Shown one piece after another: positions 22,758-32,932 of a DNA stretch of 32,932 nt. How positions within the stretch are numbered: the stretch's first letter is position 1; each line of letters begins with the position of its first letter. The translations under genes and the position numbers were made by a program. The notes under the pieces are model-generated. The model had not been told where the DNA came from and ran no database searches. It was given only the letters and a program-made list of their open reading frames with translations. This DNA is from a virus. The DNA is taken from IMG/VR virus record IMGVR_UViG_3300042448_002205, positions 1 to 32,932 of that record; one strand, 5' to 3'.

Positions 22758-23531
22758 TTAGAAGGGGACTTCGTCGGACGGGGCGTCTTCCTGAGGGCCG
22801 TTGGCGGAGGACCAGAGACGCTGGGCTTCAGCCTTGGTCGCAAGGTCCTTGGCGGAAATCTTACCGCTGTCGCCGAACGGACGGGGCTCCCAGACGTTGG
22901 CCCAGTAGTTCAGGTCGGCACACTTCTTGGACTTGTCCGTCGAACGCAGGGGAAGTTCCGACAGGGCCACGCCCTTGGCGTCGCCGAAAGGAACCACGAA
23001 CGAGGCGTTGGAGCCGCTGGCAGGAGCGGACTGGGTGCTGACCGCCTTCTTCACGGGCTGAGCCGTGGCGGGGCTGGCAGAGGGCTTGGACGTCGTCTTA
23101 ATCTGACGGTCAGTTTCGGCATCGTCGTCGTCGGTGGCACAACCGCACACGGAGGCGAGGGCATAGCGACGGAGGTAGGAGTAGATGGCCCCAGCGTGCT
23201 GGCCCTGCATGCCACGCTCGGAGGGGACGATGGCGTCGGCGGACATGACGCCGCCGTCGGTATGCACGATGGTCGTGCGTACCCCGACGCCGTACTCGTC
23301 GCCGATGGGCATCTGGACGATGGCGAGGCCGTGCTTCTTGGCGATGGGCTTCAGCACCTTGAGGTGCATGGAGAGGCTGGCGAACTTCGAGCGGAAGTGC
23401 GGGTTGTAGTCGTCGGCCTGAATGTCAGTCGTCTCGGCGATGAAGTTGACGAGGGCCTTGTACAGTTTGGTTTGGGCTTCGGTATTTTCGGGGGTCATGG
23501 CGGTGTAGGAATGGATGTTGAGAGGATACAT
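22758..23531 (-). CDS. erf: ERF-family single-strand DNA annealing protein, 257 aa
   Basis: Residues about 20-140 match the ERF superfamily: DYNPHFRSKFASLSMHL, HGLAIVQMPIGDEYGVGVRT, VHTDGGVMSADAIVPS and GQHAGAIYSYLRRYALASVC followed by DDDDAET. These proteins bind and anneal single-stranded DNA in phage homologous recombination, usually with a 5'-3' exonuclease such as the one at 25212-26012. The C-terminal 110 residues are a Lys/Ser/Ala-rich linker plus a conserved-looking tail ending DAPSDEVPF, similar to acidic SSB-interaction tails. Own promoter upstream, with about 9 nt from -10 to ATG. An internal ATG at 23498 is an alternative start. Confidence 0.88.
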   Translation of the reverse strand: MYPLNIHSYTAMTPENTEAQTKLYKALVNFIAETTDIQADDYNPHFRSKFASLSMHLKVLKPIAKKHGLAIVQMPIGDEYGVGVRTTIVHTDGGVMSADAIVPSERGMQGQHAGAIYSYLRRYALASVCGCATDDDDAETDRQIKTTSKPSASPATAQPVKKAVSTQSAPASGSNASFVVPFGDAKGVALSELPLRSTDKSKKCADLNYWANVWEPRPFGDSGKISAKDLATKAEAQRLWSSANGPQEDAPSDEVPF

Positions 23532-23540
23532 GGGAGATAG

Positions 23541-23567
23541 GTTTTACCGTGTCTTACTGGTTGTCAA
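23541..23567 (-). promoter_or_regulatory. Promoter of the ERF gene
   Basis: On the minus strand TTGACA (23567-23562) is followed after 15 bases by TAAAAC (23546-23541). Only 9 bases separate the -10 from the ATG at 23531, so the transcript would have a leader of about 2-4 nt. The -35 lies just past the end of the ribbon-helix-helix gene. Confidence 0.6.
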
Positions 23568-23574
23568 CAACAAA

Positions 23575-23742
23575 TCACACGGTCTTCAAAAAGCGTTCGA
23601 TGAGGGACCTGACGAGGTCCGAACGGGTGGCGAAGTCGCTGGACTTGGCACGGGCCGTCAGTTTCTTGAACGTGCTGGATGGCATGCGGACGGTGAGCAT
23701 TGCCTCGTTGTTGGTGCGGATTGCGGTAATCTTGGTTTTCAT
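23575..23742 (-). CDS. Ribbon-helix-helix DNA-binding protein, 55 aa
   Basis: A 55-aa gene between the helicase-loader and ERF genes. The sequence shows the Arc/CopG-type layout: a short strand EAMLTVRMPS at about 13-22, helix A (TFKKLTARAKSS), a turn, and helix B (TRSDLVRSLIERFLKTV). Such proteins bind DNA as dimers through the paired strands and are usually repressors. It has a promoter immediately upstream and the ERF promoter immediately downstream, so autoregulation and control of ERF are plausible. The stop (TGA) is followed 8 nt later by the ERF -35. Regulation is inference. Confidence 0.75.
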   Translation of the reverse strand: MKTKITAIRTNNEAMLTVRMPSSTFKKLTARAKSSDFATRSDLVRSLIERFLKTV

Positions 23743-23755
23743 GGGTGGAAGTCGG

Positions 23756-23783
23756 GTTATGGGAAAATGGTAATACGGGTCAA
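23756..23783 (-). promoter_or_regulatory. Promoter of the ribbon-helix-helix gene
   Basis: On the minus strand TTGACC (23783-23778), a 16-base spacer and CATAAC (23761-23756). The ATG is at 23742, 13 bases after the -10, giving a leader of about 7 nt. It lies directly downstream of a strong hairpin that closes the preceding transcript. Confidence 0.55.
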
Positions 23784-23796
23784 GAGGAAAGAGGAA

Positions 23797-23824
23797 GGGC
23801 GGGTCAGATTTCTCCGACCCACCC
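23797..23824 (-). terminator. Hairpin terminator after the helicase-loader operon
   Basis: A 12-pair stem with one mismatch (gggcgggtcaga / tccgacccaccc on the plus strand) and a four-base loop. On the minus strand it is followed by the pyrimidine-rich ttcctctttcctctt. It lies in the 135-nt gap 23743-23877, which otherwise holds a second -35-like TTGACA (23888-23883) with no clear -10 and no gene. Confidence 0.6.
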
Positions 23825-23877
23825 CTGTGGAGTCACACAACCACGAATGACAACAGGTGCATATTCATTGGGCCTAA

Positions 23878-24555
23878 TCAGTTGTCAAGCCCAATTCCGA
23901 CAGCCTTATAATAATCTCTCAGGCGTCGGATGATGGCGGCTCCAGTCTCCTTGTCCTTGCCATCGAAGCGGTCAAGGAAGGCGGAGCCGTTGAAGTTCGT
24001 GCTGATGATGGTCGGGTTGCGGGACGTGCTACGCTCGTCGATGATGGCGAACAGGTCGGAGGCCATGCGGTTCGTCAGACGCTCCTTGCCTAGGTCGTCA
24101 AGGACCAGCAGACCGCAGGAGATGAGTTTGTCGATTTCCTTGTTGTGGGTCTTCGTGTCGAACCCAGCCTCGATGATGCCTTCGAGTTTACGCATCGTCA
24201 GGAAGGTATAGTTCAGTTGCTTGTCACGCTTGGCGTGCTCCTCCCACATACGCCTGACGACCTCCCAGATGCCTCTGGTCTTGCCGACGCCAGTCGTGCC
24301 GTGGTACAGCAGTCCGCTGACGTCGCCCTGAGGACGCCAGTCCAAGGACGCCTGAATCTTCGGGTGCAGGAGTTCGACCTTGGTGTCAAGGAACACGCTC
24401 GGCATCGACGGCGGGGCCTTGCTGTCCGTCAGGCCCTCGCTGGCTACCCGCTCCTTGTCAAGATGCTCACGGCAATGATGCCAGCGAACCAGCGTCCTGT
24501 CCTGTCTGGCGAACAGGGCTCCACGTTTCCCACAATGGCATGCGATATCGCTCAT
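23878..24555 (-). CDS. DnaC-like AAA+ helicase loader, 225 aa
   Basis: The N-terminus has Cys/His pairs (CHCGKRGALF, then HHCREHL) that could bind zinc. The AAA+ core shows Walker A HGTTGVGKT at about 83-91, Walker B GLLVLDDLGKE at about 144-154, a sensor-1 segment PTIISTNFNG and an arginine-rich end (AAIIRRLRDYYK). This is the DnaC/IstB type that loads a replicative helicase onto melted origin DNA. The helicase itself is not in the window, so a host or distant phage enzyme would be loaded. The ATG is one base after the stop of the initiator gene, as expected for co-expressed initiator and loader. Confidence 0.85.
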   Translation of the reverse strand: MSDIACHCGKRGALFARQDRTLVRWHHCREHLDKERVASEGLTDSKAPPSMPSVFLDTKVELLHPKIQASLDWRPQGDVSGLLYHGTTGVGKTRGIWEVVRRMWEEHAKRDKQLNYTFLTMRKLEGIIEAGFDTKTHNKEIDKLISCGLLVLDDLGKERLTNRMASDLFAIIDERSTSRNPTIISTNFNGSAFLDRFDGKDKETGAAIIRRLRDYYKAVGIGLDN

Positions 24556-24556
24556 G

Positions 24557-25210
24557 TCAGAATCCTTGATTGTGGTCGTTGGCTGTCAAGGGCTTTGTGT
24601 TGGCGTTCGACCTGTTGGGTTCGAACAGGCCCTGCCAGCCCTGCTTGATGGACTGCTCGATAGCGGTGATGGACTTGCTCTCGCCCCACGTGGCAAAGTC
24701 CTTGCATTGGGCCTGTACGCTGGCGTCAGTCAGTTTGCGTCGGATTTGCTTACGGTAGGCAACCCAAGACTTCCAAGCCTCCAGAAATGCCTGAGAACCA
24801 AAAGGAAGACGCACAATCCAAGCCTGTTCCTGTGTTGTATCTTTATCTTCTTTTTTATCTACTTTACTATATGGGTGCATTTTTTTGCACCCCTCCCCCG
24901 TATTTTTTTGCACCCCCCCCCGCAGATTTTTGCACCCCTTGAGGGCGATGCCTTCCACGGTGCGGATGATGCGTTTTCCGTTGACCTCTTCCCTGACGAT
25001 GAGGCCAGCGTCTTCGAGTTGCTTCAGCAGGACCTGAATGGACCGCTCATTCTGGTTCAGGTGGGCTTGGAGGTAGGCGTTGGAGGCATAGCACCCATCC
25101 TCACCGTCCAGACCCGCCACTACCCCGTAGAGCAGTTTAGCGGTGTTGGACAGTTCGGACTGGAAGACCTGAGCGGGAATCCAGACTCCCGTGAACTTCG
25201 GGCGGTCCAT
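24557..25210 (-). CDS. Replication initiator, winged-helix / DnaD-like, 217 aa
   Basis: Residues 1-85 form a winged-helix DNA-binding domain (FTGVWIPAQVFQSELSNTAK, then ASNAYLQAHLNQNERSIQVL, LKQLEDAGLIVREEVNGKRI). A basic linker of about residues 86-120 carries repeated GCK motifs (GCKNLRG, GEGCKKMHPYSK). The C-terminal part (WKSWVAYRKQIRRKLTDASV, then WGESKSITAIEQSIKQGWQG) is the DnaD-like helix region with its final 'AIExSIxxGWxGLFEP' element. Such proteins bind the origin and recruit the loader encoded next door, as lambda O does with P. The repeated GCK codons coincide with the iteron cluster, i.e. the origin appears to be inside this gene. Confidence 0.85.
   Translation of the reverse strand: MDRPKFTGVWIPAQVFQSELSNTAKLLYGVVAGLDGEDGCYASNAYLQAHLNQNERSIQVLLKQLEDAGLIVREEVNGKRIIRTVEGIALKGCKNLRGGVQKNTGEGCKKMHPYSKVDKKEDKDTTQEQAWIVRLPFGSQAFLEAWKSWVAYRKQIRRKLTDASVQAQCKDFATWGESKSITAIEQSIKQGWQGLFEPNRSNANTKPLTANDHNQGF
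24834..24938. other. Putative origin of replication: iterons plus AT-rich tract inside the initiator gene
   Basis: Three perfect copies of TTTTTGCACCCC at 24882-24893, 24905-24916 and 24927-24938 are spaced 23 and 22 bases apart, about two helical turns each. A fourth, inverted partial copy GGGTGCATTTTT begins at 24873. A tract of about 37 bases that is almost pure A/T or pyrimidine adjoins them at 24836-24872 and would suit initial melting. The arrangement copies the lambda origin, which lies inside gene O. A nine-C run (24913-24921) and T7 runs within it are prone to slippage. Confidence 0.65.
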
Positions 25211-25211
25211 G

Positions 25212-26012
25212 TTAGACTTCGACGGTGACGGTGTTCGTGCTGTAGCAGGGCCAGACGTCGCCAGTCGAGCACACGTCGAACTTGTTCATCAGGGCGTCCC
25301 ACTCGTTGCGAGCCCTGTCGAGCGTGATATCTCCGATGCGATAAACGGCTACTGCGAACGGCGGTTCCTTCTCCACGAAGATGAACTCGAACGCCTGAAG
25401 TTTACGCTGGAAGCACTCTTCGAACAACTTCTCATAATGCACGTTCTGGAAGTCATAACCATAGTTGCGAATCGACTTCCTGACGCCTTCGACGCTGGCG
25501 TCTTCGCACGACTTCAGGTCCCCGATGATTCCGTTGCCGACGTCCACCAAGTCCATGCGACCTTTGCATGCGACGTTCTTCAGTTTCGTGAACAGGCTGA
25601 GTTCCTTGTACGCACAGCCCTCGATGATGGAACGGGCCTTCGGGTGCATCATGATGGAGTCCAGCATGCCGACCAACTGGGCGTGCTCTTCGGCGGTCAC
25701 GACGGTCTTGCCTACGGACTTGGCCTTGAACTCGTCACGGATGGCCTTGCCAGCGGTAGTGCGAGCGTCGTACTCAGGCGAGACGACCACGCCGTCGAGT
25801 TCAGGCGTCAGGACCATGCTGTGCAGGGCGGTCCCGAAGTTCAGGGCCTTGGTGTCCTTGTGAGGCTGGCTGAGGCTGGCCTTGTAGTGGGCTGGCGTCC
25901 GTCGGAACTCCTTGAGCATCGAGTTGCTCAGACCTTCGGCGGAACGGTATTCAGGGTCTGGCATGCCAGCGAAAGCCTTGCCAGTAGTATTGTCAGGATT
26001 GATGTGCTTCAT
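25212..26012 (-). CDS. RecE / exonuclease VIII-like PD-(D/E)XK nuclease, 266 aa
   Basis: The N-terminus carries the family's opening motif (GLSNSMLKEFRRTPAHYKAS, then LNFGTALHSMVLTP). The catalytic core follows: YKELSLF with an early Glu at about 149, GRMDLVDVGNGIIGDLKSC giving D...D-x-K at about 164-180, and YGYDFQNVHYEKLFEECFQ, the Q/Y-rich segment of the family. It should degrade one strand of duplex ends to expose single strands for ERF. Length fits the C-terminal nuclease domain of RecE. The stop is followed after one base by the initiator ATG. The promoter lies upstream, with its -35 on the endonuclease VII stop codon. Confidence 0.82.
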   Translation of the reverse strand: MKHINPDNTTGKAFAGMPDPEYRSAEGLSNSMLKEFRRTPAHYKASLSQPHKDTKALNFGTALHSMVLTPELDGVVVSPEYDARTTAGKAIRDEFKAKSVGKTVVTAEEHAQLVGMLDSIMMHPKARSIIEGCAYKELSLFTKLKNVACKGRMDLVDVGNGIIGDLKSCEDASVEGVRKSIRNYGYDFQNVHYEKLFEECFQRKLQAFEFIFVEKEPPFAVAVYRIGDITLDRARNEWDALMNKFDVCSTGDVWPCYSTNTVTVEV

Positions 26013-30085: not shown

Positions 30086-30117
30086 GAAGGGGGCCGAAAG
30101 GCTCCCTTCTTTTTTTG
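30086..30117 (+). terminator. Terminator after the 407-aa gene
   Basis: A 10-pair stem (gaagggggcc / ggctcccttc, one G-T pair) with a GAAA tetraloop, then tctttttttg. It is a textbook intrinsic terminator and separates the early operon from array unit A. Confidence 0.9.
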
Positions 30118-30126
30118 CCTTACGTG

Positions 30127-30155
30127 TTGACGGCCTCCCTAATGTGTTACACGTT
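30127..30155 (+). promoter_or_regulatory. Promoter of array unit A
   Basis: TTGACG (30127-30132), a 17-base spacer and CACGTT (30150-30155). The GTG is 6 bases after the -10, the same distance as in the other five units. Confidence 0.6.
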
Positions 30156-30158
30156 CAA

Positions 30159-30234
30159 CCCGTGGACACTAACCACCACGGGGAATCCTCCGACGCTGTC
30201 TCCCCCAGCGTCACCGCCCGAAGCGGTTCTTCGG
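30159..30234 (+). ncRNA. Array element A: 5' three-hairpin RNA element
   Basis: H1 pairs CCCGTGG (30159-30165) with CCACGGG (30176-30182) and contains the start codon. GGGGA (30180-30184) follows. H2 is GACGCTG/CAGCGTC (30192-30198, 30206-30212) with loop TCTCCCC. H3 is CCGAAG/CTTCGG (30218-30223, 30229-30234). This is the only unit whose H1 loop is ACACTAACCA rather than AACCTAWCAA. The loop of H2 is complementary to GGGGA. Confidence 0.7.
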
Positions 30235-30482
30235 AACACGTGCCGTTCTCTGCCAATCCTGCCAGCCCCGCCGAAAAGCGGTTTCTGACGGCCCTCTCTC
30301 GCACCCGTGCGAGAAAGAACGGAATCCTCCACTCCTATAACAAGATTATGGAAAATCTAGAGGAGGCCCGAAAGTTCGCCGAACAAGCGAGTGGGCACAA
30401 CGTCAGCGAATCGGACCGCAAGGTTCTGTTCACCCTTGCGACGAAGGCCCTGAAGGGTTTCCGACTTAAGACGCCGAAATAA
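30162..30482 (+). CDS. Array unit A protein, 106 aa, leaderless GTG start
   Basis: The first ATG in this frame is far downstream (30346), so the GTG at 30162, at the predicted transcript start, is the sensible start. The N-terminal 25 residues are dictated by the RNA element (VDTNHHGESSDAVSPSV). The rest is a basic helical protein (RFLTALSRTRARKNGILHSY, then NLEEARKFAEQASG, VLFTLATKALKGFRLK). No family is recognised. It has no visible homology to the other units beyond the 5' element. Confidence 0.6.
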   Translation: MDTNHHGESSDAVSPSVTARSGSSEHVPFSANPASPAEKRFLTALSRTRARKNGILHSYNKIMENLEEARKFAEQASGHNVSESDRKVLFTLATKALKGFRLKTPK

Positions 30483-30504
30483 TCCAACCGAAAGGTTCCA
30501 CAAC

Positions 30505-30532
30505 GGGCCCCCGCAAGGGGGCTCTTTTTGTT
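30505..30532 (+). terminator. Terminator of array unit A
   Basis: An 8-pair stem GGGCCCCC / GGGGGCTC with loop GCAA (30513-30516), then tttttgttt. The GCAA loop recurs in the next two terminators. Confidence 0.88.
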
Positions 30533-30534
30533 TA

Positions 30535-30563
30535 TTGCGTTCGACGTCGTCGTGTTCCACATT
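30535..30563 (+). promoter_or_regulatory. Promoter of array unit B
   Basis: TTGCGT (30535-30540), a 17-base spacer and CACATT (30558-30563). The GTG at 30570 is 6 bases after the -10. The -35 starts only about 6 bases after the previous T-tract. Confidence 0.6.
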
Positions 30564-30568
30564 GTGAG

Positions 30569-30643
30569 CGTGGAACCTATCAACCACGGGGAAAAAAACG
30601 ACGCTGTCTCCCCCAGCGTCAACCAGCCGACGGTCTTGTCGGC
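30569..30643 (+). ncRNA. Array element B: 5' three-hairpin RNA element
   Basis: H1 is CGTGG/CCACG (30569-30573, 30584-30588) with loop AACCTATCAA. GGGGA is at 30588-30592. H2 is GACGCTG/CAGCGTC (30600-30606, 30614-30620) with loop TCTCCCC. H3 is GCCGAC/GTCGGC (30626-30631, 30638-30643) with loop GGTCTT. Confidence 0.75.
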
Positions 30644-31109
30644 GAGTTTCAAAACCTCCCTCTTCGTCGCTGGGATTTTGAACGGGGCCCTAGAAACTGG
30701 ACTCAACCCGAATTGGTTTCAGTTAAAGCACAAGCGAAGTCACGACGGCTTTCTCGACGCCGCTTTTGCCGAAGGCGGGCTCGACACTCCCAGCGGGAAA
30801 CCCGCACGGGAAGACTGGAGCCTGACGGTGCGGATGAATGCAAACGACGAAGACGACGACGCAGATTCACCGTACAAGCGAATCACCGCCAAGTCAGCCG
30901 TCGCCGTTTGGAAGCGATACGCTTACGGGAAGCGAGAAATGACGGCCCACGCCCGTGCCCGATTCGTCAAACTCTTATGCGTCGTCGAACTGCACGCCCG
31001 TGGACTGCACGACGATGCCGACGAAATCCTGAGTACGTTCGACTTCGACGGTGTGGATTATGACTGCTTCCTTCAGGTTGCGACGTGCGGAGACGTCATC
31101 TACGGATGA
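30570..31109 (+). CDS. Array unit B protein, 179 aa, leaderless GTG start
   Basis: The GTG at 30570 is at the predicted +1; an in-frame GTG two codons earlier (30564) exists but not in most other units. Residues 1-25 are the element-encoded VEPINHGEKNDAVSPSVNQP. The rest is an alpha-helical protein with an acidic patch (NANDEDDDADSPYKR) and helices AVAVWKRYAYGKREMTAHAR then VKLLCVVELHARGLHDDADE. No family is recognised. Likely an early phage accessory protein. Confidence 0.65.
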   Translation: MEPINHGEKNDAVSPSVNQPTVLSASFKTSLFVAGILNGALETGLNPNWFQLKHKRSHDGFLDAAFAEGGLDTPSGKPAREDWSLTVRMNANDEDDDADSPYKRITAKSAVAVWKRYAYGKREMTAHARARFVKLLCVVELHARGLHDDADEILSTFDFDGVDYDCFLQVATCGDVIYG

Positions 31110-31115
31110 CACGAC

Positions 31116-31144
31116 GGGGCCCCGCAAGGGGCCCCTTTTTGTTT
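31116..31144 (+). terminator. Terminator of array unit B
   Basis: A perfect 8-pair stem GGGGCCCC/GGGGCCCC (31116-31123, 31128-31135) with loop GCAA, then tttttgttt. Confidence 0.9.
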
Positions 31145-31145
31145 C

Positions 31146-31174
31146 TTGTGTTTGTCCTGTAGGCCGTGCAGATT
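31146..31174 (+). promoter_or_regulatory. Promoter of array unit C
   Basis: TTGTGT (31146-31151), a 17-base spacer and CAGATT (31169-31174). The GTG at 31181 is 6 bases further. Confidence 0.55.
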
Positions 31175-31179
31175 GTGAG

Positions 31180-31255
31180 CGTGGAACCTATCAACCACGG
31201 GGAAAACAACGGTGAGCGTCTCCCCCGCTCCCAATCCGCCGACGATATCTTCGGC
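31180..31255 (+). ncRNA. Array element C: 5' three-hairpin RNA element
   Basis: H1 is CGTGG/CCACG (31180-31184, 31195-31199). GGGGA is at 31199-31203. H2 is GAGCG/CGCTC (31214-31218, 31226-31230) with the invariant loop TCTCCCC. H3 is GCCGA/TCGGC (31238-31242, 31251-31255). Both arms of H2 differ from units A and B, but pairing is kept. Confidence 0.75.
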
Positions 31256-31588
31256 ACTAACTTCGTCGGCTTGTGCGAGTTCCCTAAAAACGAACTCCAC
31301 CAGCGAGACACGATTCTACTCCAGATTCGGAACATCGGCTGGTACGTTGAGGATGAGGACGGCGTTCGAATCGAGCCCGACGGCACGCACTTGTTTCTGA
31401 TTCTCGAAGACACGTTCGAAGAGTTCGCCGACCCGACTGACATCAGCCCCGCCGATACGAAGAACATTGCCGACCGAATCGAGCGGTTCTTGTCCGACAA
31501 GTTCGAGCGGGAACTCGCAACGCTCCAGTTCCGAGTCGTGCAACGGAAGAAGAAGAAAGGGACGCCCGACGACGTCAGGCTGAACTAA
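31181..31588 (+). CDS. Array unit C protein, 135 aa, leaderless GTG start
   Basis: Starts VEPINHGENNGERLPRSQSA; the H2 loop is read as L-P-R here instead of V-S-P as in units A, B and D, i.e. in a different frame. The remaining residues form an acidic alpha/beta protein (LLQIRNIGWYVEDEDGVRIE, then GTHLFLILEDTFEEFADPTD) with a Lys-rich end (QRKKKKGTPDDVRLN). No family is recognised. Confidence 0.65.
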   Translation: MEPINHGENNGERLPRSQSADDIFGTNFVGLCEFPKNELHQRDTILLQIRNIGWYVEDEDGVRIEPDGTHLFLILEDTFEEFADPTDISPADTKNIADRIERFLSDKFERELATLQFRVVQRKKKKGTPDDVRLN

Positions 31589-31593
31589 CAACT

Positions 31594-31621
31594 GGCCCCC
31601 GCAAGGGGGCCTTTTTTGTTT
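31594..31621 (+). terminator. Terminator of array unit C
   Basis: A 7-pair stem GGCCCCC/GGGGGCC (31594-31600, 31605-31611) with loop GCAA, then ttttttgttt. Confidence 0.9.
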
Positions 31622-31635
31622 CCCGTTTTTGTCGC

Positions 31636-31665
31636 TTGCACGCCCGGCCTTTTGTCGCCTAGTGT
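31636..31665 (+). promoter_or_regulatory. Promoter of array unit D
   Basis: TTGCAC (31636-31641), an 18-base spacer and TAGTGT (31660-31665), the best -10 of the set. The GTG at 31672 is 6 bases on. Confidence 0.6.
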
Positions 31666-31668
31666 TCT

Positions 31669-31745
31669 CCCGTGGAACCTAACAACCACGGGGAAATCCA
31701 GAAGAGCGTCTCCCCCGCTCTCAACCAGCCGACGGTCTTGTCGGC
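31669..31745 (+). ncRNA. Array element D: 5' three-hairpin RNA element
   Basis: H1 is CCCGTGG/CCACGGG (31669-31675, 31686-31692) with loop AACCTAACAA. GGGGA is at 31690-31694. H2 is AGAGCG/CGCTCT (31703-31708, 31716-31721) with loop TCTCCCC. H3 is GCCGAC/GTCGGC (31728-31733, 31740-31745) with loop GGTCTT. Confidence 0.75.
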
Positions 31746-32091
31746 AACCGAAACGCTCCGCCGTTACATCCTCGGCGAGTACAAGGGCAAGTTCCCCAGC
31801 GTCAACTGGAACACCGACGGCAACATCTTCGCCGTCCTCGGAACGCTCAGCAGGGCGTGGAAGCATACGGACCGCAACGTTGCGGACCGCCTCCGAATCC
31901 TCAGCCAGTTCGCAATGGCGGGAGAACTTCCTGAGAGCGTGCCGAACGCTCGAACGCTCAGCGAGAACCTCAGGAAGGAAATGGAAGGATACGACGAACT
32001 CCTCTCCTTCTGCATCGGCCTGAGCGTCGCCGACTACGTCGAAGACGACGAAGAGGACAGCGACGACGACGACGAAGACAGCGACGAATAA
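31672..32091 (+). CDS. Array unit D protein, 139 aa, leaderless GTG start
   Basis: The N-terminus is element-encoded (VEPNNHGEIQKSVSPALNQP). The middle is helical (ETLRRYILGEYKGKFPSVNW, then FAVLGTLSRAWKHTDRNVAD). The C-terminus is a highly acidic tail (EDDEEDSDDDDEDSDE) that could mimic nucleic acid or bind basic proteins, a feature of some phage inhibitors of host DNA-binding proteins. That last point is only a possibility. No family is recognised. Confidence 0.65.
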   Translation: MEPNNHGEIQKSVSPALNQPTVLSATETLRRYILGEYKGKFPSVNWNTDGNIFAVLGTLSRAWKHTDRNVADRLRILSQFAMAGELPESVPNARTLSENLRKEMEGYDELLSFCIGLSVADYVEDDEEDSDDDDEDSDE

Positions 32092-32097
32092 AGCAAC

Positions 32098-32126
32098 GGG
32101 GCCCCAGCGATGGGGCCCTTTTTGTT
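32098..32126 (+). terminator. Terminator of array unit D
   Basis: A 7-pair stem GGGCCCC/GGGGCCC (32099-32105, 32112-32118) with loop AGCGAT, then tttttgttt. Confidence 0.88.
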
Positions 32127-32128
32127 TG

Positions 32129-32157
32129 TTGCGTCGGGCATCGTGTAAGGCTTTTGT
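32129..32157 (+). promoter_or_regulatory. Promoter of array unit E
   Basis: TTGCGT (32129-32134), a 17-base spacer and TTTTGT (32152-32157), a weak -10. The GTG at 32164 is again 6 bases on. Confidence 0.45.
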
Positions 32158-32238
32158 CAGGACGTGGAACCTAACACACCTGAGGGCAATCCCGATTCGA
32201 ACCCCCTCTCGAATCAGTCCGCCGACGACGCTGTCGGC
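32158..32238 (+). ncRNA. Array element E: divergent 5' hairpin element
   Basis: H1 is weak here (CAGG/CCTG, 32158-32161 and 32179-32182, is the only obvious pairing). H2 is GATTCGA/TCGAATC (32194-32200, 32209-32215), a completely different stem, with loop ACCCCCTC. H3 is GCCGAC/GTCGGC (32221-32226, 32233-32238). The upstream G-rich strand is GAGGG (32182-32186), which matches CCCTC in the loop, so the loop-strand complementarity is preserved by a double change. Confidence 0.65.
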
Positions 32239-32610
32239 ATCAACATCAACCGAGGCTTGTGCAACCTCTCGACGTTCCTGCACAAGAATCGCAACTGGGG
32301 CCCGTCGCCTCCCCGCTGGTCTTCGCTGTATGAAATCGAACGGTGCTTCGGCGGACCTGAGGAAGGAGGATGGTGGTATGACTGGCTCACCCCCATCGCT
32401 TGCGTCAGGGAACCGTTCAGTCAGGAGGACCGCAAGGCGATGCTCGAACGCTTCAGGAATGAACACGGGGCAATCTTCGAAGGCGACGAAATCGACGGTA
32501 TCAAAACTCCCGCTTTCTGGTCCGCCTCCCGACGACGTGCGACGCACATCGTACTCGACGACGACGTCCCGTTCTCAGAATCCAGTCATACCGTACCACA
32601 TTACGAATGA
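32164..32610 (+). CDS. Array unit E protein, 148 aa, leaderless GTG start
   Basis: Starts VEPNTPEGNPDSNPLSNQSA. The body is rich in Trp, Gly and Arg (RNWGPSPPRWSSLYEIERCF, then GGPEEGGWWYDWLTPIACVR) with a helical part (EDRKAMLERFRNEHGAIFEG). No family is recognised. The two Trp/Gly segments may form a compact beta or zinc-free fold; no catalytic motif is visible. Confidence 0.65.
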   Translation: MEPNTPEGNPDSNPLSNQSADDAVGININRGLCNLSTFLHKNRNWGPSPPRWSSLYEIERCFGGPEEGGWWYDWLTPIACVREPFSQEDRKAMLERFRNEHGAIFEGDEIDGIKTPAFWSASRRRATHIVLDDDVPFSESSHTVPHYE

Positions 32611-32615
32611 ACTCA

Positions 32616-32642
32616 GGGCCCCAGCGATGGGGCCCTTTTCTT
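32616..32642 (+). terminator. Terminator of array unit E
   Basis: A 7-pair stem GGGCCCC/GGGGCCC (32616-32622, 32629-32635) with loop AGCGAT, the same loop as unit D, then ttttctttt. Confidence 0.85.
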
Positions 32643-32647
32643 TTGCG

Positions 32648-32676
32648 TTGCATCAGGACGCCCGACGTCTCACATT
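32648..32676 (+). promoter_or_regulatory. Promoter of array unit F
   Basis: TTGCAT (32648-32653), a 17-base spacer and CACATT (32671-32676), the same -10 as unit B. The GTG at 32683 is 6 bases on. Confidence 0.6.
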
Positions 32677-32680
32677 CGAG

Positions 32681-32757
32681 CCGTGGAACCTATCAACCAC
32701 GGGGACAATTCTCCCGAACGTCTCCCCCGTTCGAACTCCGCTGAGGAGATTCTCAGC
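32681..32757 (+). ncRNA. Array element F: 5' three-hairpin RNA element
   Basis: H1 is CCGTGG/CCACGG (32681-32686, 32697-32702) with loop AACCTATCAA. GGGGA is at 32701-32705. H2 is CGAACG/CGTTCG (32715-32720, 32728-32733) with loop TCTCCCC. H3 is GCTGAG/CTCAGC (32740-32745, 32752-32757), a stem unlike any other unit, with loop GAGATT. Confidence 0.75.
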
Positions 32758-32932
32758 AACCTCAACAAGACGCTCGAAGCCGTCAGGCTTCGGAAGACGC
32801 ACGTCGGCGACGAAGTCATCGCCCTGCACGACGAAATCGAAGCGATGCCCGTTGCTGACCGTCGCCTCCCGTTCCTTCGCTCCCAGCGGGACGAACTGCG
32901 GAAGGCTTACAGGGCACTCGACGCAATCGAAG
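32683..32932 (+). CDS. Array unit F protein, N-terminal 83 residues (runs off the window)
   Basis: Open from the GTG at 32683 to the window edge. The N-terminus is element-encoded (VEPINHGDNSPERLPRSNSA). A charged helical region follows (NLNKTLEAVRLRKTHVGDEV, then LPFLRSQRDELRKAYRALDA). The array therefore probably continues beyond the window. No family is recognised. Confidence 0.6.
   Translation, partial: MEPINHGDNSPERLPRSNSAEEILSNLNKTLEAVRLRKTHVGDEVIALHDEIEAMPVADRRLPFLRSQRDELRKAYRALDAIE

Follow-up and report, generated by a model that had tools for sequence, protein, structure and literature searches.

We describe, in an uncultured phage, a candidate replication origin that appears to be built into the linker-coding part of its own initiator gene, a reading to which we give a probability somewhat below nine in ten. 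The window analyzed here is the whole 32,932-base IMG/VR record IMGVR_UViG_3300042448_002205, and the features computed from it and from related loci are the repeats, their dyad form, their retention, constraint at the DNA level, an adjoining AT-rich tract, synteny with a helicase loader gene, and covariation between the repeats and residue 59 of the initiator. So read, the segment is an iteron origin that works in the manner of lambda ori and of pSK41 rep, and by sequence it is a member of neither family.

Initiator gene, repeats and AT-rich tract

The initiator gene (654 bp) matched HTH_36 (PF13730) in Pfam at 40.8 bits, against a curated cut-off of 25, and PHROG 678 ('replication initiation O-like') spanned residues 9-213, i.e., both of its domains (E-values in Table 1). 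The same PHROG was matched by all 29 aligned relatives, and the winged-helix initiator named by the first-pass annotation is thereby borne out. In the AlphaFold2 model, pLDDT fell below 50 at residues 96-106 and 113-126, and it is this low-confidence linker, between the winged helix and the C-terminal domain, whose coding sequence carries the repeats, as had been claimed. The model predicts a helix-turn-helix, and residue 59 falls in its second helix, i.e., the recognition helix. The DnaC-like loader, which also matches IstB_IS21 in Pfam, does lie directly downstream as annotated earlier, its ATG starting one base past the initiator stop codon (TGA-C-ATG). Likewise, a loader homologue follows the initiator in 58 of the 61 relatives described below, and two of the three loci in which none was seen have too short a downstream sequence to judge. 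The two genes are flanked by one for an ERF-type annealing protein and one for an exonuclease VIII-like protein (22758-23531 and 25212-26012), and the surroundings (22758-26012) make up a compact replication and recombination block. A host search in cellular genomes gave four distant matches only, and a nucleotide search for relatives among isolated phages gave none.

Table 1. Features of the candidate origin and its genes in the window
Feature	Position	Strand	Basis or remark
Initiator gene, 217 aa	24557..25210	-	PF13730 E 1.9e-10; PHROG 678 E 3e-19; AlphaFold2 model
Winged helix of initiator	about residues 8-86		AlphaFold2 model, PF13730
Recognition helix, residues 55-67 (predicted)	25010..25048	-	model helix 54-66 (model numbering starts at Asp2, one lower)
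Gln59 of initiator	25034-25036	-	within recognition helix
Disordered linker of initiator (predicted)	about residues 92-127		pLDDT under 50 in AlphaFold2 model
Iteron 1, 14-bp dyad core TGCAAAAATCTGCG	24921..24934	-	overlaps perfect 12-mer 24927-24938
Iteron 2, 14-bp dyad core TGCAAAAAAATACG	24899..24912	-	overlaps perfect 12-mer 24905-24916
Iteron 3, perfect dyad TGCAAAAAAATGCA	24876..24889	-	overlaps perfect 12-mer 24882-24893; hairpin
AT-rich tract, proposed DNA unwinding element, CATATAGTAAAGTAGATAAAAAAGAAGATAAAGATAC...	24824..24873	-	72% AT over 50 bp
C-terminal domain of initiator	about residues 138-200		AlphaFold2 model
DnaC-like AAA+ helicase loader	23878..24555	-	PHROG 50 E 8e-19; PHROG 3277 E 1e-16; PF01695 E 8e-6

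The 12-mer TTTTTGCACCCC occurs three times without mismatch, with starts 23 and 22 bp apart, which confirms the three perfect repeats noted before. No further exact copy was found anywhere in the 32.9-kb record, and a search of the window within one mismatch returned a single other place (28912). A triple 12-mer inside the 654-bp gene arose in 1 of 5,000 synonymous-codon shuffles and in 2 of 5,000 dinucleotide shuffles. Because the relatives showed it, we parse the units as dyads with an A-rich centre rather than as one-sided 12-mers: three 14-bp dyads of the form (T)GCA-N6-TGC(A), at spacings of 22 and 23 bp, which on the coding (minus) strand read TGCA-AAAATC-TGCG, TGCA-AAAAAA-TACG, and TGCA-AAAAAA-TGCA. 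The inverted partial copy reported by the first-pass annotation, which had missed the dyads, is indeed present (GGGTGCA at 24874-24880, facing TGCACCC at 24886-24892 in a hairpin with z -2.0); it is no separate element, as it forms the right-hand half of dyad 3. Taken by itself, the window has a dyad score of 24, only modestly above the maximum of 60 shuffles (22), since the right halves of iterons 1 and 2 are imperfect, and the case for dyads leans on the relatives more than on the window. The three copies encode GCKN, GVQK, and GCKK, using two reading frames.

The AT-rich tract is A/purine-rich on the coding strand and located 3' of the iterons along the gene, and its AT content compares with 45% for the initiator gene as a whole. 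Over 24834-24873 it reaches 78% AT, a level attained by 0.11% of the window's 40-mers, in agreement with the adjacent tract described earlier. A turn of GC skew at the site, raised earlier as a check, was not found: cumulative GC skew stays level between about 24 and 27.5 kb, with no turn at the iterons, and AT skew tracks gene orientation. This comparison says little, because gene orientation changes nearby.

Elsewhere in the window, positions 30100-32800 hold a series of short plus-strand ORFs, each with a terminator-like element (GGGCCCC-GCAA-GGGGCC-TTTTT; five copies, 30505 to 32616). A leader/start segment, CGTGGAACCTATCAACCACGGGGAAAA, likewise occurs in five copies (30150 to 32671) and gives related N-termini (VEPINHGE...); the series looks like an expanded small-gene family with a common leader.

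Retention and DNA-level constraint in relatives

Relatives were collected by IMG/VR scans with profile alignments, and after removal of proteins more than 97% alike, 61 usable initiators of the clade were available, the window's own included. Dyads were located with a finder that reads DNA alone and spares GGAA its low-complexity penalty, a choice made after the data had been seen. Three dyads at 22-24 bp were found in all 61 genes, the spacings being 23 bp (97 cases), 22 bp (23), or 24 bp (2). Dyad scores averaged 26.6 in the linkers (range 22-30), whereas the two remaining domains of these genes averaged 20.4 and 20.6 and shuffled linkers 19.7; the lowest linker scores overlap the highest controls, and single weak members are thus without standalone proof. 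An AT-rich tract lies beside the iterons in 61 of 61 relatives (mean 68% AT), and among them there was no case of repeats lost while the protein was kept.

At one locus (L017, 1959-2660), a single perfect dyad is left, and the initiator frame is broken directly after it, the C-terminal domain continuing in another frame. The reduced array may reflect true loss or faulty assembly. As the locus no longer encodes an intact protein, it is no example of a protein that outlived its repeats.

In none of the 61 genes do all three copies lie in one frame, and the spacings are almost never multiples of three; therefore, it is the DNA and not the protein that is repeated. Half-site words differ by lineage (TGCA, TGCGG, TGTA, GGCA, GGAA, and TGAA), and within one gene most half-sites have the same word, iteron 1 being the most degenerate. 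Word switches mostly hit all copies together and rewrite the linker peptide, so that dyads of equal geometry encode unrelated peptides in different relatives (e.g., GGAENCGGGVQK, LGRGKPVSRR, and GGKKLPRGRQEIA). Since the peptide follows the iteron word across the relatives, the DNA dictates the peptide, as the first-pass annotation had held, and a linker peptide in an initiator of this type is not to be taken for a protein motif.

Synonymous choice is unusually rigid in both parts: excess synonymous identity was 0.34 for iteron codons and 0.35 for AT-tract codons, whereas the folded domains gave 0.13 and 0.15, and residues 114, 116, 118, 120, and 122, within the AT tract, used one codon in every compared pair (to two decimals). 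The earlier suggestion that origin function constrains coding gains support from these values.

The spacers between dyads (8-9 bp; 24890-24920 in the window and the clade's linkers) contain a G or C run of at least 4 in 108 of 122 cases. These runs fall beyond the symmetric part of the dyads, their strand differs between relatives, and 14 of the 122 spacers have none.

Covariation of residue 59 with the half-site

Of the 61 genes, 39 have G as base 1 of the half-site and 22 have T or C, and residue 59 predicts this base in every one: Gln goes with T or C (22/22), and both Arg (20/20) and Lys (19/19) go with G. When all variable protein columns outside the iteron-coded linker were scanned, residue 59 reached a Theil U of 1.00, and the next best column 0.58. 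At the level of single half-sites, G was found in 120 of 120 for Arg and in 90 of 114 for Lys, some Lys members mixing GGAA with TGAA/TGCA half-sites, and T or C was found in 130 of 132 for Gln. When the tree was built with the recognition helix and the linker left out, residue 59 and base 1 changed 11 times each, and 11 of 11 independent pairs were concordant on the best tree; on well-supported branches the pairs were 4 of 4 concordant, too few for sign-test significance. A natural minimal pair, L103 (EVRQVQN, TGCA) and L109 (EERQVRN, GGCA), shares 69% DNA identity in the iterons and 88% and 93% in the DNA flanking them. We also used a word-free check, in which one base was read at a fixed distance from a CATATA-like anchor, and the outcome was the same in 57 of the 59 genes that could be read; of the misses, one (L111) is an anchor mis-hit inside an iteron and the other (L160) a real mixed case.

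That Gln and Arg/Lys should face different bases fits established protein-DNA recognition chemistry, and we infer that residue 59 contacts base 1 of the half-site. The covariation is strong indirect evidence that the initiator would bind the iterons. A bolder reading, towards which we incline only slightly, is that residue 59 (Gln vs Arg/Lys) sets base 1, that about 11 joint initiator-origin switches may have taken place, in which most iteron copies were rewritten and the linker recoded as a by-product, and that the gene-internal pair may be fixed or exchanged as a unit. Such fixation or exchange would be possible because the two partners are no more than about 160 bp apart in a single gene. 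If true, joint switches may create replication types without cross-reaction.

The rule is local to the window's clade: for the distant GGGGTGCA group it fails, Gln, Arg, and Lys varying there with a constant word. For a second rule, concerning base 3 of the half-site (C or A), the best column reached a U of 0.79 and is confounded with phylogeny, and we make no claim for it.

Origins inside their own initiator genes have been known since lambda, and this one is ordinary in kind and well supported; its use lies in the covariation series. To our knowledge, natural series in which initiator and origin specificity change together are rare, and a literature search, with most subscription papers outside its scope, found no paper on the window's clade or on a residue-level iteron code. 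Close pairs within the clade combine few recognition-helix residue differences with concerted iteron change, and with such natural sequences one can test how a protein and several of its sites switch without a non-functional intermediate.

Proposed mechanism and alternative explanations

The steps that we infer are the physical binding itself, the stoichiometry of the dimers, unwinding, recruitment of the loader, and firing of the origin. In the mechanism we propose, winged-helix dimers of the initiator would bind the three dyad iterons, each half-site being read by the recognition helix and its first base by residue 59. With the repeats about two helical turns apart (22-23 bp), the bound dimers would fall into register and put the neighbouring AT-rich tract under strain until its strands part, and the C-terminal domain, together with the DnaC-like loader, would recruit the host's replicative helicase to the opened region.

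The same binding could serve another end: the repeats might work chiefly as an operator or autoregulatory roadblock, and replication might start at another place. The covariation leaves room for this, as it shows co-change with the DNA-binding domain and not replication as such. However, the repeats are located about 276-335 bases into the gene, no promoter-like site was found in the region, and no second copy of the perfect word occurs in the record. Moreover, the AT-rich tract always adjoins the repeats and has its own synonymous constraint, and replication or recombination genes lie on both sides. We therefore consider a roadblock improbable.

Two further explanations stand lower still. A structural DNA or RNA element (a G-quadruplex, hairpin, or terminator) could be the selected feature, given the G-run spacers, with G or C runs in most of them, and the one hairpin; yet the strand of the runs varies by relative, some spacers are without runs, no terminator-like site was found in the region, and the link to the recognition helix is left unexplained, which makes such an element very unlikely. 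Least credible of all is that the DNA repeats merely reflect a GCK linker motif selected in the protein. The linker does read GCKN/GVQK/GCKK, but it is predicted to be disordered, the copies occupy different frames, synonymous codons are fixed, and relatives encode unrelated peptides from dyads of equal geometry; frame and codon data already disfavour this explanation. We thus retain a replication origin within the initiator gene as the preferred reading, and compare it below with known systems.

Among the model's best structural matches are N-terminal domains of Rep initiators (4pql, Z 9.5; 5kbj, Z 8.7), one of which is a Rep-DNA complex (5kbj), with unrelated winged helices at 8-9. A sequence search of solved structures gave weak matches only, nearly all to winged-helix regulators. 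Pseudomonas phage Cruim01, Bordetella phage PHB09, and many IMG/VR phages also carry HTH_36/O-like initiators, most of them with linker repeats at a period of about 20-24 bp. Each has its own words and copy numbers, the residue-59 rule is not transferable to them, and PHB09 has the GGGTGCA core in common with the window. Some O-like proteins with other N-terminal domains showed no clear repeats. In more distant loci (L041, L054, L066, L075, and L083), a second family of short repeats, AACCGTCA, AACCAGTCA, and ACCAGTAATCAGG, lies 3' of the iterons with a period of roughly 10-15 bp, where the unwinding region would be.

In the Vibrio cholerae satellite PLE, the phage-associated initiator RepA binds three semi-palindromic iterons, and replication modules have been exchanged between variants; unlike the origin proposed for the window, the PLE ori is in a noncoding region and not within the initiator gene (PMC8263062). 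Closer in layout is the staphylococcal plasmid pSK41 (RepA_N), in which, as proposed for the window, the origin is in the middle of the initiator gene: four Rep boxes located centrally within rep are bound by the N-terminal domain, and the linker that they encode is dispensable (PMC5703833). In the pPR9 chimaera, the RepA_N domain has given way to a PF13730 N-terminal domain and the origin has been exchanged with it, so that the PF13730 domain and the in-gene origin region are exchangeable as one block that still replicates (PMC5703833). The window's initiator gave no match to RepA_N (PF06970) up to E 1 in Pfam, and its C-terminal domain is O-like, whereas that of pSK41 contacts DnaG primase (PMC5703833); the one is a phage and the other a plasmid.

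The parallel with lambda O/P drawn by the first-pass annotation holds for layout, i.e., iterons, AT tract, and loader order, and not for the protein families. More specifically, the window's initiator is an HTH_36 protein with no match to Phage_rep_O (PF04492) up to E 1 in Pfam, whereas lambda O gives PF04492; the loader is a DnaC-like AAA+ protein, whereas lambda P gives PF06992; and three 14-bp cores stand against four 18-bp iterons. Direct profile comparison of the window's initiator with lambda O was not significant, and both match PHROG 678. By family, the window module is not lambda O/P. The architecture is nevertheless shared. In lambda, the central part of gene O contains both the iterons and the AT tract (PMC7466680), and in both systems dyadic iterons with an A-rich centre, placed mid-initiator gene, are followed immediately 3' on the same strand by an A-rich tract, with the loader gene next. 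When lambda was measured in the same way, its iteron spacings were 20, 24, and 23 bp, its frames 0, 2, 2, and 1, and the next 50 bp 72% AT; thus, spacings of 22 and 23 bp in the window compare with 20-24 bp in lambda, and both have mixed frames and a tract of 72% AT.
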